Origin: Halarcobacter anaerophilus
GTDB lineage: Bacteria > Campylobacterota > Campylobacteria > Campylobacterales > Arcobacteraceae
Direction: 5' to 3'
DNA: 64,000 bases
Assembly (NCBI RefSeq): GCF_006459125.1
Contig: NZ_CP041070.1
Span: 2,542,001 to 2,606,000 of the forward strand
Shown: one piece after another, positions 6,044 to 52,358 of the stretch
Position numbering within the stretch: the first letter of the stretch is position 1
Layout of the letters: each line of letters starts with the position of its first letter
The notes under the pieces: model-generated
The model's input: only the letters and a program-made list of their open reading frames with translations
Databases searched by the model: none
Told to the model about the DNA's origin: nothing
Made by a program: the position numbers and the translations under genes

Positions 6044-8386
6044 TTGAGTTTAGAAAAAGACTATTTTTTATTATATCATGGAATAAATGATATTGAACAA
6101 ACTTCCACATACGGTACAAATGAAAATAAAGATAAAGATGAGTTTTTTGATATAGCCTCTTTAGTTTTAAGTGCCACAAGAAGAGATTATGAAAAATTTA
6201 TTACTCTTGACAGTTTTAAAAAACTTGTATCTAAAATAACAAATAAAGAGGTAAAAAACCTGGATGAACTCTATCAATTACAATTTTGTTTAATTGATGC
6301 AATTGAAAATGATTCAAGAAATTGTAATATTGAGAGAATGCATGAAAGTTTTGAATATCTTAAAAATGAAAATATAATAGGACAATTTGAATATAACAAA
6401 TTGATTTCACTCTTTGATCCAAAAGAGCTTGCGTCTTGCGATGATGAAATAGATGTTGAAGATGAATTAAAAGTAGATGAAAAAAAACCTTTCAAAGAAG
6501 CCAAAAACGAACTTGACGATCTTATTTTAGAACTTAAATCAATTTTTATAACAGATGATTTTAAAAAAGAATTAGATGAGACTTCAAACTACCTCTCAAA
6601 CCAAAAGTTTTCTATCGGTATCACGGGTGTTATGAATGCAGGGAAATCAACAATGTTAAATGCCCTGATGGGACAAGAGATTTTAGGAAGTGCAGTTGTT
6701 CCGGAAACTGCAAATTTAACAATCGTAAAACACGGTAAACCAAGTGCAAAAGTATTTTACTGGAATAAAGAAGAATGGCAAAAAATTGAGCAGAGTGCAA
6801 ATGAAATAAAATCTATAAAAGATTTTGTAGATGAAACAAAAAAAGTATTCGGTGATAAATTAAGCGATTTAATAAAAGAGGATTCTTTAAGCGAAGAGGT
6901 AAATATAAACAGCCTTGCCTCATATACTTCTGCTGAAGCCAGCGGAAAAAAATGCAACCTTGTAAAATATGTAGAACTTAGATCAGACCTAAATTTTTTA
7001 AGTGAAGGTATCGAAATTGTAGATACTCCCGGATTAGACGATCCTGTAATACAAAGAGAAGAGATTACAAAAGAGTATATTTCAGATTGTGATTTGATGA
7101 TTCATCTAATGAATGTAAGCCAAAGTGCGACATTAAAAGATGTAGAATTTATCATTGATGCCCTGCTCTATCAAAATATAACAAAACTTTTAATAGTAAT
7201 TACAAGAGCAGACACCGTTACAAAAGAGCAACTAGAAGAAGTAATAAACTATACGAAATCATCAATTCAAAGACAACTTAAAGCACAAAATAAAGACAGC
7301 AAACTAAATTATATATTGGAGCATATAAAATTTATCCCTATTTCGGGGAAAATGGCGCTTTATCATAGAACAGGAAGAAGTGAAGAGGCAATAAAAAACG
7401 GTTTTAATCTTGAAGATACGGGAATTTTGGAAATTGAAGATTATTTAAACGAAACCCTGTTCGGAGCTGACTCTTCAAAATCAGATTTAATTATAAAAAG
7501 TGCCCTAATACAATTACAAAAAATAATTACAAAAGAGCTTAAATCTTTTAACTATGAATTGGTATTGCTTTCAAAATCAAAAGATGAATTATTAAAAGAT
7601 TTAGAAGAGTTTACAAAGAAAAAAGATACAAATAAAAGAATCTTTGCCTCTTTAAAAGAGGATATAAATTTATATAAAAGTGATGCAACAAACTATTTAG
7701 AAACTTTAGAAGCTTTTCTTTCAAGTGAATTAATCGAATTGCAAAATATTATAAAACAAAGAGTTTTTAATGATGTAAAATACTCTTTAGAAAAAGATAA
7801 AAGAAAACCTGAGAACAGTAGAATCAAAACCATTGTCGAAACAGCAATAAAAGACGGTATTATTGACATAATAAGAGACTATAGATATAAATTTATTAAA
7901 AAATCTCAAAGTATTGGAGAGATTTGTGAACAGAAATATCAAGATTTAGGTTTTGTAATGGGGCATAAAAACGATAATTTCGATGCAAGAGGCTTTTTCC
8001 AAGATGATTTCAAATCAGGATTTTTAACCTCTTCAAACCAACTACTTATAAATAAAATATTAAAAGAGCTAAAAGATACAAAACAGAGCAAACTCTTAGA
8101 ATTTGACAGGGCAATAGAGACTCAAATAAAAGAAGAATTTAGTTCTATTGAAAAAACAATAAAAGAGAAAGCAAAAAAAATCTCCGAAATGCTGATTGAG
8201 AACTTTTTTAGAGCTATTGCCGAACCTTTAAATGTATTTGAACACAAATTAAAAAAAGATGAAAAACTGCTCCAAGACAGAATTGAAAACTTCGAAGAAA
8301 AAGAGAAAAACAAAGAAGTAGTAACTATGGATATACATAAAAAAATAAAAAGACTTGAATCAGTTATGAAAGGACTTAAAGCATGA
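6044..8386 (+). CDS. Dynamin-like GTPase (first of a pair)
   Basis: Large GTPase of the bacterial dynamin-like family, 780 residues. About 190 N-terminal residues precede the GTPase domain. P-loop GVMNAGKS is at 195-202, switch motif DTPG at 327-330 and the base-recognition motif TRAD at about 387-390 (Arg where Lys is usual). The C-terminal half is charged and strongly helical, as expected for the stalk. The start is TTG, chosen because AAAGG lies 8 bases upstream. It overlaps the second GTPase by ATGA. The arrangement matches the C. jejuni pair Cj0411/Cj0412 (Cj-DLP1/2), which assembles and tethers membranes. Expected role: membrane remodelling or tethering at the inner membrane (inference). 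Confidence 0.88.
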   Translation: MSLEKDYFLLYHGINDIEQTSTYGTNENKDKDEFFDIASLVLSATRRDYEKFITLDSFKKLVSKITNKEVKNLDELYQLQFCLIDAIENDSRNCNIERMHESFEYLKNENIIGQFEYNKLISLFDPKELASCDDEIDVEDELKVDEKKPFKEAKNELDDLILELKSIFITDDFKKELDETSNYLSNQKFSIGITGVMNAGKSTMLNALMGQEILGSAVVPETANLTIVKHGKPSAKVFYWNKEEWQKIEQSANEIKSIKDFVDETKKVFGDKLSDLIKEDSLSEEVNINSLASYTSAEASGKKCNLVKYVELRSDLNFLSEGIEIVDTPGLDDPVIQREEITKEYISDCDLMIHLMNVSQSATLKDVEFIIDALLYQNITKLLIVITRADTVTKEQLEEVINYTKSSIQRQLKAQNKDSKLNYILEHIKFIPISGKMALYHRTGRSEEAIKNGFNLEDTGILEIEDYLNETLFGADSSKSDLIIKSALIQLQKIITKELKSFNYELVLLSKSKDELLKDLEEFTKKKDTNKRIFASLKEDINLYKSDATNYLETLEAFLSSELIELQNIIKQRVFNDVKYSLEKDKRKPENSRIKTIVETAIKDGIIDIIRDYRYKFIKKSQSIGEICEQKYQDLGFVMGHKNDNFDARGFFQDDFKSGFLTSSNQLLINKILKELKDTKQSKLLEFDRAIETQIKEEFSSIEKTIKEKAKKISEMLIENFFRAIAEPLNVFEHKLKKDEKLLQDRIENFEEKEKNKEVVTMDIHKKIKRLESVMKGLKA

Positions 8387-48484: not shown

Positions 48485-49147
48485 TTGTTTTCACATTTTC
48501 ACCCCTTTAAACCCTTTTTAAATAAAGATACAAAAGCTATAATAGTAGGAACACTTCCTCCTCCTAGATTTTGCACAAAAGAGTATAAAAAAGAGGATGT
48601 ACTTTTTTGTTACGGCTCAAAAGACAATCTTCTTTGGCAAATAATAGACAAAATATATAAACTTGATCTTCCTTTTGATAATACAAATGAAGCTGTAAGT
48701 AAAAGAGAAGAGTTTTTAAAAGAGTATAAAATAGGAATATGCGATATTGTGGATTCTTGCAAAAGAGAAAAAATAGATGCAAGTGATTTAGGAATGAAAG
48801 ATGTCAAGTTAAGAGATATTCTTTGGTTTTTAAAAGAGTATAAAGATATAAAAACTCTTATTTTTACGGGCAGTTATTCAAAAAATTCTCCTGAATACTT
48901 TTTTAGGCAAGTTTTAAAAGAGAATAAAATAGAGTATAAAGCAGTTGATAATAATACTCCTAAAATAAACTCTTTTATTTATGACAATAGAGCTTTTCAA
49001 ACTATAAGTTTAACTTCACCTTCAAATGCCGCTAATAGATATATAGGTTCAAATAAACTCTATAAAGAGAAAAAAGAGAAAAATTCCGCCTACTCTACCT
49101 TTGATTTTAGACTTGAGCAGTATGAAAAAGTTTTCAAAGCCCTTTAG
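48485..49147 (+). CDS. Uracil-DNA glycosylase superfamily protein
   Basis: 220 residues. The start VGTLPPPR with a downstream CYGSKDNLLWQII is the active-site pattern of MUG-like members of the superfamily (GxxPP and Phe/Tyr-x-x-x-N-x-W), and SLTSPSNAANR has the position of the DNA-intercalating motif. May remove damaged or mismatched bases, but several groups of this fold have no proven activity. TTG start with AAAGGATA upstream. Confidence 0.65.
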   Translation: MFSHFHPFKPFLNKDTKAIIVGTLPPPRFCTKEYKKEDVLFCYGSKDNLLWQIIDKIYKLDLPFDNTNEAVSKREEFLKEYKIGICDIVDSCKREKIDASDLGMKDVKLRDILWFLKEYKDIKTLIFTGSYSKNSPEYFFRQVLKENKIEYKAVDNNTPKINSFIYDNRAFQTISLTSPSNAANRYIGSNKLYKEKKEKNSAYSTFDFRLEQYEKVFKAL

Positions 49148-49222
49148 CTGAAATTTTACTTAAGAATATATTTAATTAATTTTTATTACAATAGTGAATG
49201 ATTATTCATTTAGGAGTTGCTT

Positions 49223-49318
49223 ATGTTTATTTCTGAAATAATGATGTTTGTAGTAGCTGGACTTGCTCTTTTTACTTTGGTTTCTTGGTTTATTACTTTT
49301 TTTGTAAAAGAAGATTAA
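49223..49318 (+). CDS. Small membrane protein of 31 residues (paralogue A)
   Basis: Starts MFISEIMMFV and ends ITFFVKED. One hydrophobic helix fills almost the whole protein, with a charged end FVKED. Good ribosome binding site AGGAG at 49212-49216 and a TACAAT -10-like element at 49187-49192. Without a gap, 13 of 29 positions equal those of the 30-residue ORF at 51952-52044, including MF, I, FV, GL, FT, S and FVK. Conservation between the two copies and a proper start signal argue that both are real. Function unknown. Confidence 0.7.
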   Translation: MFISEIMMFVVAGLALFTLVSWFITFFVKED

Positions 49319-49326
49319 TTAAAACT

Positions 49327-49355
49327 GTACTCAATCTAACTTTTAGATTGAGTAC
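49327..49355 (-). terminator. probable terminator of metNIQ
   Basis: A 13-base perfect stem, GTACTCAATCTAA with TTAGATTGAGTAC, loop CTT. Read leftwards the stem ends in AGTTTTAATT. It may also stop the small plus-strand gene. Confidence 0.65.
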
Positions 49356-49362
49356 ATAAAAT

Positions 49363-50187
49363 TTAGAATGCAGCTATAATAGCACCTTTATATTTCTCTT
49401 TTATAAAATCTTTTACCTCTTTTGAAGTAAGAACTTCATCTAAAGCTTTAATATAATCTTTATTTTCATTTCCCTCTTTTACTGCAACAATATTTGCATA
49501 AGGAGAATCTTTTGACTCAAGAACTATTGCATCATCTAATGGATTTAAATCTGCCGCTAAAGCATAGTTTGTATTAATAATTGCAGCATCAACTTCATCC
49601 AATATTCTTGGTAATTGAGGAGCATCTAACTCTTTTATAAAAAGATTTTTAGGGTTAGTTTTAATATCAAGTGCTGTTTTAAGAGCAACATCGTTAAATG
49701 TTAAAAGACCTTGTTTTTCTAAAATATCCAACGCTCTACTTTCGTTTGTAGGGTCATTAGGAACAGCAATAACTGCTTCATCTTTTAGTTCGTCTAATGA
49801 TTTGATTTTTTTAGAATAGAATCCCATTGGTTCTAAGTGAACACTTACGGTTTTTACTAAATGTGTTTTTTTATTTGAGTTAAACTCTGTTAAGTATGGA
49901 GAGTGTTGGAAAAAGTTTGCATCTAACTCCCCTTCATCTACCGCAATATTCGGTGTTACATAATCTGTAAATTCAACAATTTGTAAATCATACCCTTTTT
50001 TCTTTAAAAGTGGTTTTACAAACTCTAGAATCTCGGCATGAGGTACGGGAGTAGCTCCAACTTTAATAACTGTTTTAGCAGGTTCTGCTTGTTGAACAAC
50101 TTTTTCCTTTTTTTCTTCTTTTGTGCAAGCTGTAAGCCCTAAAGCCAATGCACCTGCTACTGCAATTTTTAAAAAATTTCTTAACAT
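49363..50187 (-). CDS. metQ: D-methionine-type ABC transporter substrate-binding lipoprotein
   Basis: 274 residues. The lipobox LTAC puts Cys21 or so at the lipidated N-terminus. The NlpA/MetQ family body is shown by VGATPVPHAEILEFVKPLL and VDEGELDANFFQHSPYL, and the conserved NDPTNESRAL. Captures methionine or a related compound for MetNI. Last gene of the metN-metI-metQ operon. Confidence 0.93.
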   Translation of the reverse strand: MLRNFLKIAVAGALALGLTACTKEEKKEKVVQQAEPAKTVIKVGATPVPHAEILEFVKPLLKKKGYDLQIVEFTDYVTPNIAVDEGELDANFFQHSPYLTEFNSNKKTHLVKTVSVHLEPMGFYSKKIKSLDELKDEAVIAVPNDPTNESRALDILEKQGLLTFNDVALKTALDIKTNPKNLFIKELDAPQLPRILDEVDAAIINTNYALAADLNPLDDAIVLESKDSPYANIVAVKEGNENKDYIKALDEVLTSKEVKDFIKEKYKGAIIAAF

Positions 50188-50196
50188 ACATATCCT

Positions 50197-50835
50197 TTAT
50201 TTTTTTGTGATTTTATATAAATAATCCCCTGCACTTTGTACAAGTTGAACAAGAACTATTAATATAATAACCGTATAAATCATAGTATCGGTTTGAAATC
50301 TGTAGTATCCGTATTTAATAGCTACATCTCCTAAACCTCCACCGCCTACTGCTCCAGCCATAGCTGAAAACCCGATAACAGTAATCAATGTTAAAGTAAT
50401 TGCCGATATTATACTAGGTAAAGCTTCAACAAGCATTACTCTAAAAATAATTTGCCAATCACTAGCTCCAAATGATTTAGCAGCTTCAATAACTCCAAAA
50501 TCAACCTCTTTTAACGCACTCTCTATTAGTCTTGCGATAAAAGGCGCCGCACCTAAAGTAAGAGGAATAATTGCAGCAGTCGTACCGATACTTTTTCCTA
50601 TTAAAAATTTTGTTAAAGGGAAAAGTACAATCATTAGGATGATAAAAGGGAAAGATCTTAAGGTGTTTATAATTACATCAAGTACTGAATAAATTTTTAA
50701 ATTTTGTCTTAATCCCCCTTTTGAGGTCAGAATTAAAATTATTGCTAAAAGAAATCCTATAACAACAGCCAAAAAAGTAGAAACGAAAGACATATAAATA
50801 GTTTCACCAAGTGCCGGCACTAAAATATCAACCAT
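50197..50835 (-). CDS. metI: Methionine ABC transporter permease
   Basis: About 212 residues from the ATG at 50835; an upstream TTG at 50850 is rejected because the ribosome binding site GGGAGG lies between them. Five helices and an EAA loop (EAAKSFGASDWQIIFRVMLVEALP). Overlaps the metN stop (TAATG). The SFPFIILMIVLFPLTK segment is typical of MetI. Confidence 0.93.
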   Translation of the reverse strand: MVDILVPALGETIYMSFVSTFLAVVIGFLLAIILILTSKGGLRQNLKIYSVLDVIINTLRSFPFIILMIVLFPLTKFLIGKSIGTTAAIIPLTLGAAPFIARLIESALKEVDFGVIEAAKSFGASDWQIIFRVMLVEALPSIISAITLTLITVIGFSAMAGAVGGGGLGDVAIKYGYYRFQTDTMIYTVIILIVLVQLVQSAGDYLYKITKK

Positions 50836-51791
50836 TATAAAACCTCCCAAACGATGTCATGCTTTTTGATATATTCAATAACGCTTTGTTCTTCTTCATC
50901 TTTTACGTTTATAACCATATTTCCTATAATATGAGAGTTTACCTCTTCAAGTTTTCCCCATACTATATTGAAATCCATATCAAGCTCTCTTGCCATAGTA
51001 GTTATAAAAGATTTATGAGCATTTTTTTTAGGAAAATAGAGTTTAATATTTACCCCTTTTTTAGGTACGACTTCAACTTCGCCTAAAAACTCTTTCATCT
51101 TTTCATCCGGTTTTAAAAATAGATCTTCCGTGTTATCAAAACCTATGATATTGCCGTGTTCCAATAAAAGCGCTTTTTGTGCAATCTGTTTTACAACATC
51201 CATTTCATGAGTTACCAAAACAATGGTAATATTCAATTTTTTATTAATCTTTTTTAAAAGATTTAAAATTGACGTTGTAGTATTTGGATCAAGAGCCGAT
51301 GTTGCCTCGTCTGATAATAAAACTTGAGGTTCCAAAGTCAAAGCTCTGGCTATAGCCACTCTTTGTTTTTGACCGCCGCTTAGCTGATTTGGATAAGAGT
51401 TTAGTTTACTTTTAAGACCTACTAAGGATAAAAGCTCTTTTACTTTTTTATCAATTTCATCTTTAGAGTAACCCCAAAGCTGCATTGGTAGAGCAACATT
51501 TTCATATACGTTTTTTCTTTGAATCAGTGAAAAGTGTTGAAAAATCATACCAATATTTTTTCTAAAACTTCGTAACTGCTCTTTACCTAACTCTTTTATC
51601 TCTTTACTATTAACTTTTAAAGAACCAGAACTATACTCTTCAAGTCCGTTCATACATCTTAAAAGTGTAGATTTTCCTGCTCCTGAGTGACCTACAATAG
51701 CAAAAATCTCACCGGCTTTTATATCAATAGAGATATCGTTTAGTACTTTTGAACTGCCGTAAAATTTATTCAAATTTTTAATACTAATCAT
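50835..51791 (-). CDS. metN: Methionine ABC transporter ATP-binding protein
   Basis: 318 residues. Walker [10 protein letters not shown], signature LSGGQKQR, Walker [14 protein letters not shown]. The C-terminal 80 residues form the NIL regulatory domain ([20 protein letters not shown]), which in MetN binds methionine and inhibits transport. First gene of the operon. Confidence 0.94.
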
Positions 51792-51951
51792 AAAACATCC
51801 TTATTAGAGGGGAATGTTATTCAAACTTTTATAAAGATAATGTTAAGTAAATATACAACTAGGCAAATTATATTTAAAAATAAAGTTTTAAATCGTATGA
51901 TATCTTTATTAATCTCATTTTTTTAAGTAAACTAAATAAAAAGGATTTAAA

Positions 51952-52044
51952 ATGTTTTTAACTCAAATTGCAATTTTTGTAATATGCGGCTTAGTTGCTT
52001 TTACAGTAATAAGCGGTATCGTAAGCATATTCGTAAAAGATTAA
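51952..52044 (+). CDS. Small membrane protein of 30 residues (paralogue B)
   Basis: Starts MFLTQIAIFVICGL and ends VSIFVKD. A single hydrophobic helix with a basic/acidic C-terminus. Ribosome binding site AAAAGGA at 51941-51947 or so. It is related to the 31-residue ORF at 49223-49318, at the other end of metNIQ; both are on the plus strand, opposite to metNIQ. A regulatory partner of a membrane complex is a reasonable guess, but nothing shows which. Confidence 0.7.
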   Translation: MFLTQIAIFVICGLVAFTVISGIVSIFVKD

Positions 52045-52052
52045 CACAAACT

Positions 52053-52358
52053 TTAGTGAAAAAGTTCTTTTTCTAAAACTCTTATATCACTTTCAACATT
52101 TTTTATATTTGTTGAAATATCTTCTAATGAATTTAATAATTTATTTCTGTCTAGTTTGTCAAACTCCAGATTCGTTTCAATACTGCTGCTAATTGCAGAA
52201 ATTACATATAAACGATTTTTAAACTTTTCAAACAATTCATTTGTCTGTTCTCGTTTCTGAAAGTTAAGATGATAAATCTCTTTTTTTAGTTTATAGACTT
52301 CTTTAAAAATAATCAAAAGTATGCAACAGTTGGTAAACACAAGCAATATTTCAACCAA
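52053..52358 (-). CDS. Membrane-anchored coiled-coil protein, unknown function
   Basis: 101 residues. N-terminal helix (about 3-18, ILLVFTNCCILLIIF), then a charged helical region with heptad-like spacing (EIYHLNFQKREQTNELFEKF; later NSLEDISTNIKNVESDIRVLEKEL). TTG start with AAAGGAG nine bases upstream. Convergent with small paralogue B, 8 bases apart. I do not recognise a family. Confidence 0.6.
   Translation of the reverse strand: MVEILLVFTNCCILLIIFKEVYKLKKEIYHLNFQKREQTNELFEKFKNRLYVISAISSSIETNLEFDKLDRNKLLNSLEDISTNIKNVESDIRVLEKELFH

Follow-up and report, generated by a model that had tools for sequence, protein, structure and literature searches.

Two very small open reading frames stand one past each end of the methionine transporter genes metNIQ of Halarcobacter anaerophilus, on the opposite strand, and raise the question of whether such short frames are genes and what their products might serve. 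An earlier note on this DNA had read them as paralogous single-helix membrane proteins of a regulatory or accessory kind and had tied them to the transporter that they bracket. We followed both frames in the window (the whole stretch of 64,000 nucleotides analysed; contig NZ_CP041070.1, positions 2,542,001 to 2,606,000) and in related genomes. The frames, their coordinates, their ribosome binding sites and their orientation are as the note had them, with gene starts taken from a simple ORF caller:

49212-49216, + strand: ribosome binding site of A, AGGAG, a few nucleotides 5' of the ATG, read from the sequence
49223-49318, + strand: mini-gene A, 31 amino acids MFISEIMMFVVAGLALFTLVSWFITFFVKED, single membrane helix, type A
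49326-49356, no strand assigned: terminator-like perfect hairpin of 14 bp between the stop codons of A and metQ
49363-50187, 50197-50850 and 50835-51791, - strand: metQ, metI and metN (NCBIfam names), which adjoin the mini-genes through gene order alone
51952-52044, + strand: mini-gene B, 30 amino acids MFLTQIAIFVICGLVAFTVISGIVSIFVKD, a paralogue of A without operator

The start codon of B is preceded by the ribosome binding site AAAGGA. The hairpin folds at -17.5 kcal/mol (z -6.5) and satisfies the T-tail rule on the metQ strand.

A family of single-helix mini-proteins

A and B are identical at 13 of 30 ungapped positions (13 of 29 by the note's count). We built a hidden Markov model from type-A proteins only and scored it against 20,000 composition-matched shuffled peptides as a control. 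The four B proteins reached 41-50 bits and the best shuffle 16, so that the resemblance of A and B is not due to chance. The same model gave 24-49 bits to proteins of a third type, C, absent from the earlier note, against 21 for the best shuffle. AlphaFold2 predicted one helix, residues 3-27, with a mean pLDDT of 90.8, in agreement with the single membrane helix first proposed, and the hydropathy maxima of the mini-proteins are 2.4-2.8. Conservation of the frame in relatives, the check that the note had set, was borne out: six-frame searches of related genomes found the A and B frames both intact, dN/dS was 0.06-0.22 within groups of close orthologues and third codon positions varied most. Judged by these substitutions, the family is under strong purifying selection, and A and B are real genes that had been overlooked. 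Conservation peaks on one side of the helix (moment at 100 degrees, p 0.002), and the conserved face of A comprises I6, V10, G13, F17, V20 and residue 24. F17 is invariant, and L14 and I6 are kept in 35 of 36 sequences. The proteins thus have a single helix of about 30-40 amino acids with a conserved contact face, and in such an alignment one-face conservation is what one expects of a helix packed against a partner.

The new family, with types A, B and C of 30-38 amino acids, gave convincing matches only in genera g1, g9, g10, g13 and g15 among 104 genomes of Arcobacteraceae. The mini-proteins have no significant match in Pfam, NCBIfam, PDB (by sequence), PADLOC or PHROG, and we found no description of the family, and nothing relevant on Arcobacter small proteins, in the open-licence literature. 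Tiny families such as CoxIIa and B12D matched only at E 0.02-0.5, which was treated as noise, and the best NCBIfam match of any member (0.0014, to a polyprenyltransferase fragment) as chance similarity between helices. Profile matches in genus g11 (E 0.0005-0.006) belong to a protein of 53-62 amino acids at a different locus, which we judged unrelated.

Type C proteins have 32-38 amino acids and a longer basic tail (L064-L075, for example L064:6001-6108). They are encoded between thiC-mrp and hisIE/hflK-like genes in twelve genomes, where the contig lets this be seen, and none was found in the window genome. Genome G024 carries a tandem pair of mini-genes (L063:6001-6093 and 6283-6375), each with a separate copy of the operator, at a locus distinct from those of rho and metNIQ. 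Trees of 30-residue proteins are weakly resolved, and two of their features are usable: a split (99/98) with type C and the G024 pair on one side and every other A and every B on the other, and, in the DNA tree, a single clade of B (97/83). This clade lies beside the single slot genes of G005 and G008, with weak support (82/75).

Gene order around the methionine transporter

We compared gene order across 30 stretches. The orthologous slot lies between a 220-amino-acid protein without Pfam match (48485-49147) and rho, and on this comparison the interval between the uncharacterised gene and rho is the ancestral site of A. The full arrangement A-metNIQ-B occurs only in the window genome and in G002, G007 and G011, so that B is present in only four genomes. 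One mini-gene accompanies metNIQ in G004, G006, G009, G013 and G015, and in G001 it adjoins metQ in a rearranged locus. A single mini-gene occupies the slot without metNIQ in G005 and G027; the contig of G008 breaks off directly after its mini-gene, and that genome yielded no metQ. Conversely, metNIQ occupies the slot without a mini-gene in G003, G010 and G014, and the metQ genes of G027 and G029 lie away from any mini-gene. Linkage to metNIQ is therefore not constant, and we rejected a functional tie to the transporter on gene order. The bracketing that the note had found striking does exist; we saw it only in the window genome and in three genomes close to it. Its position in the tree makes B most simply a slot-local duplicate of A's lineage, lacking the operator, and bracketing a by-product of gene order; as these loci read, A and B flank the methionine transporter by accident.

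Several features of these loci are recorded for their own sake. The 220-amino-acid neighbour is conserved, and a scan of named genomes with it as query gave no match. A 101-amino-acid neighbour without Pfam match (52053-52358) was seen only in the window among the stretches compared. G011 and G002 have a second metQ at the 5' end of metNIQ (L051:8658-9470 and L052:8649-9503), about 70% identical to that of the window. The metQ of G001 (L054:5175-5999) has an in-frame TAA; its MetQ may be broken, and mini-gene A is kept.

An operator, its regulon and a candidate repressor

Type A genes have a conserved promoter operator, also absent from the earlier note, which in the window lies as follows:

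49178-49193, + strand: type-A promoter, -10 region, placed by aligning 20 loci; its best hexamer, TACAAT, stands 2 nt upstream of the operator
49195-49210, + strand: palindromic operator TGAATGATTATTCATT over the expected transcription start, its centre 20 nt before the start codon of A

The motif TGAATGANTATTCATT or its reverse complement was found upstream of all 20 type-A genes, in genera g1, g10 and g13, with 14-16 of 16 positions matching and its centre 20-36 nt before the ATG. Upstream of the 4 B and 12 C genes the best match was only 9-12 of 16, and the operator was found in none of the 16, so the tie to the regulon does not extend to the whole family. Types B and C were set apart from A by locus first, not by operator, and the G024 pair was counted as A. 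Type C is a differently regulated paralogue, and B and C, being controlled in another way, may contribute an activity equal or related to that of A. At 20 of 20 type-A loci the operator is preceded, at a distance of 1-15 nt (mostly 1-10), by a TATAAT-like hexamer; the operator therefore covers the expected transcription start, the place of a repressor. A promoter scan of the region gave no excess over shuffles, and the placement of the -10 region thus rests on the alignment of the 20 loci. A Fur box upstream of A, the first guess for AATGATTATTCATT, was dropped; the motif is TGAATGANTATTCATT, with hydrogenase and respiratory genes as co-targets. No description of the operator motif was found in the open-licence literature.

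Type-A genes gave the motif, which then served as the query genome-wide, so that enrichment at sites other than those of A is independent of its derivation. In the window genome five sites were found at one mismatch or less (control, 1), and they precede A, a hydrogenase small subunit with TAT signal, a PhsA-like molybdopterin oxidoreductase, a DUF3373 gene and aspA. The exact 15-mer occurs 33 times in 12 related genomes and the reversed pattern twice; as these genomes are not independent of one another, the 33 sites represent fewer than 33 separate events. Hydrogenase small subunits follow 14 of the sites, type A 8 and the PhsA-like gene 4; the remainder precede DUF3373 (3), nrfHA (1), a flavocytochrome c (1) and others (2). 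Altogether, 31 of the 33 sites precede type A, genes of hydrogenases or anaerobic respiration, or DUF3373. A generalised site taken from the tetR promoter, ATGAATNTTCATTYA, has exactly four perfect matches in the window genome, before the PhsA-like gene, tetR and both hydrogenase operons. At one mismatch it also marks an anaerobic C4-dicarboxylate transporter (dcu), an NrfH-type cytochrome followed by a multihaem protein, and a cytochrome b561/dihaem gene; these sites and that of aspA are weaker, suggestive evidence, since one-mismatch matches number 27 against 15 in the control, near background. We note that the DUF3373 protein (L123:13163-14809; relatives in L107, L112 and L118) has the operator in four genomes and that its gene adjoins one for a small 107-amino-acid protein with a signal-like N terminus, possibly of the same respiratory regulon.

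Shared promoter sites of this kind make it very probable that type A is expressed together with genes for hydrogen and anaerobic respiration. That A's operator is common to these genes suggests that A serves their machinery and not the transporter. The mini-gene is not essential to the regulon, since three members of the genus, G003, G010 and G014, have the regulator and lack the mini-gene.

The candidate regulator is a TetR protein of 197 amino acids, encoded by the first gene of a hydrogenase cluster (genome position 1127664). This gene overlaps that of a hydrogenase small subunit without TAT-signal match, and the large subunit follows:

L122:3665-6515 (genome C1:1127664-1130514): tetR and a TAT-less [NiFe]-hydrogenase small and large subunit pair

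Its TetR_N domain scored 50 bits against a gathering score of 24, which places it in the TetR family, and its best NCBIfam match, Bacillus FadR (NF053878, 3.7e-11), reached 43.2 bits against a cut-off of 200. The protein is 78-91% identical in the relatives searched, the most distant excepted, and a scan of named genomes with the TetR alignment found close relatives in Halarcobacter, Malaciobacter, Poseidonibacter and Arcobacter. Of 24 tetR orthologues, about 18 have the palindrome in their own promoter, and for most of these at most one shuffle in 300 matched as well. We think it likely, from these sites and this gene order, that this TetR binds the palindrome and represses.

Across Campylobacterota, tetR overlaps or directly precedes the hydrogenase small-subunit gene at nearly all of 80 loci taken from genome contigs (L182-L261), and tetR with the TAT-less small and large subunit pair may form an undescribed sensor unit for H2 or redox state; we found no description of such a unit in Campylobacterota in the open-licence literature. 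A C-x4-C pair is present in TetR at 78 of the 80 loci, the frame being cut short in the other two, and C119 and C124 are also invariant in the smaller TetR alignment. The pair suggests that the protein senses redox state or a metal, or is linked to H2. The regulatory hydrogenases HupUV and HoxBC signal through a histidine kinase. They resemble this unit in the genetic link between a cytoplasmic [NiFe]-hydrogenase pair and a protein that regulates hydrogenase genes, and differ in that the fixed partner here is a TetR protein, not a histidine kinase.

A proposed role in anaerobic electron transport

We favour, with a confidence somewhat better than even, the reading that A, under repression by TetR, is a peptide that assists or regulates a membrane complex belonging to the regulon of H2 and anaerobic respiration. 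A would most likely be translated, as a membrane micro-protein of one helix, from a gene that has its own promoter, operator, ribosome binding site and hairpin. Where transcription of A starts, the palindrome is most likely occupied by the TetR of the hydrogenase cluster, which would also bind the start regions of the hydrogenases, of the PhsA-like molybdoenzyme and of its own gene, probably with dcu, aspA and the multihaem cytochromes as further targets. On release of the repressor, for which H2, redox state or a metabolite are candidate signals, A would be made together with the machinery of anaerobic and hydrogen-linked electron transport. An acidic N terminus and a basic C terminus suggest that the former is probably periplasmic and the latter cytoplasmic. 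The conserved face would then pack against one of that machinery's membrane subunits and stabilise or tune it, as CydX and CioY do for bd-type oxidases; that A acts by such packing is a possibility we rate just short of even. The accessory or regulatory helix of the earlier note survives as a conserved single-helix protein, probably a peptide of a membrane complex, and its tie to metNIQ does not, as the mini-gene and metNIQ each occur in the slot without the other and the operator of A is common to genes for hydrogenases and anaerobic respiration.

Known small membrane proteins offer partial parallels. MgtS of Escherichia coli is a stand-alone, tightly regulated protein of 31 amino acids under the control of Mg2+ limitation. 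That control sets it apart from A, which shares its size, its stand-alone gene, a regulated promoter of its own and presumed binding to a membrane protein, a resemblance in general features that does not imply homology. CydX and AppX of the E. coli bd oxidases are operon-encoded single-helix accessory peptides with paralogues. A is like them in its single helix and its paralogues, and in its proposed accessory role, and differs in sequence, with no significant Pfam or NCBIfam match to any oxidase peptide. CioY of Campylobacter jejuni, a 34-amino-acid subunit of the CioAB oxidase, binds CioA and is encoded in the 3' UTR of the oxidase operon (PMC11955535). Like A it is a single-helix protein of the same phylum and size class, missed by annotation and tied to respiration (a tie proposed in the case of A); unlike it, A is monocistronic, far from any oxidase in the stretches examined, under its own operator and without a family match. 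A works, as we propose, most like CydX and CioY. We have not filed it as a peptide of the CydX, CioY or CcoQ type, because in gene order across more than 20 genomes it was not in or beside an oxidase operon, or next to any respiratory gene, and because Pfam, NCBIfam and PDB gave no sequence match to a known family.

Other readings were weighed against the same evidence. It is very improbable that the MetNIQ transporter has A and B as subunits, accessory or regulatory: both flank it in the window genome and three relatives and A lies beside metQ in six more, and against this the same slot holds mini-genes without metNIQ and metNIQ without mini-genes, metNIQ is unaccompanied at other loci, type C sits at an unrelated locus, and the mini-genes lie on the opposite strand, with A under an operator that it shares with hydrogenases. 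Hydrophobic peptides of type I toxins, which depolarise the membrane and are normally silenced by antisense RNA, would fit the size, single helix, stand-alone genes and lineage-restricted distribution of the family, as well as the tandem pair in G024 (L063). The window has no Rfam match of any kind, though an antisense RNA of a new sort may exist; PADLOC and PHROG gave no match, and strong purifying selection with one conserved face and an operator common to respiratory genes also speak against a toxin, which we regard as rather unlikely.

The operator itself admits two further readings. A could be a micro-protein of lipid or envelope stress that tunes the membrane when a FadR-like regulator senses acyl-CoA or another lipid. 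The best NCBIfam model for this TetR is that of Bacillus FadR, and the operator of B. subtilis FadR is presumably close to our palindrome; the score lies below cut-off, the other targets are respiratory and not fatty acid genes, and tetR overlaps or touches hydrogenase genes phylum-wide, which leaves this reading quite improbable. Alternatively, another factor, for example of CRP/FNR type, may bind the palindrome, with tetR as merely one more target. The 5-4-5 spacing of TGAAT-N4-ATTCA and the anaerobic gene content of the targets agree with this; the type-A operator, placed over the start region, is unsuited to a class II activator, and A. butzleri, of a different genus, has no FNR or CRP homologue according to a review (PMC6682613). 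We consider such a factor unlikely.

More speculatively, the TetR repressor whose gene overlaps that of a cytoplasmic [NiFe]-hydrogenase could be a Campylobacterota switch for sensing H2 or redox state that governs hydrogen and anaerobic respiration in Arcobacteraceae in place of FNR, with a 31-amino-acid membrane peptide that tunes a respiratory complex among its outputs; we offer this tentatively and hold it doubtful as a whole. If true, it would be a candidate answer to how Arcobacter-type bacteria turn on hydrogen and anaerobic respiration, a question left open by PMC6682613, which reports no function for other Arcobacter regulators. A respiration-linked family of micro-proteins missed by curated family libraries would be added, and the defined regulon, with TetR, its operator and about ten target promoters named, would offer a way to find the partner of the micro-protein.
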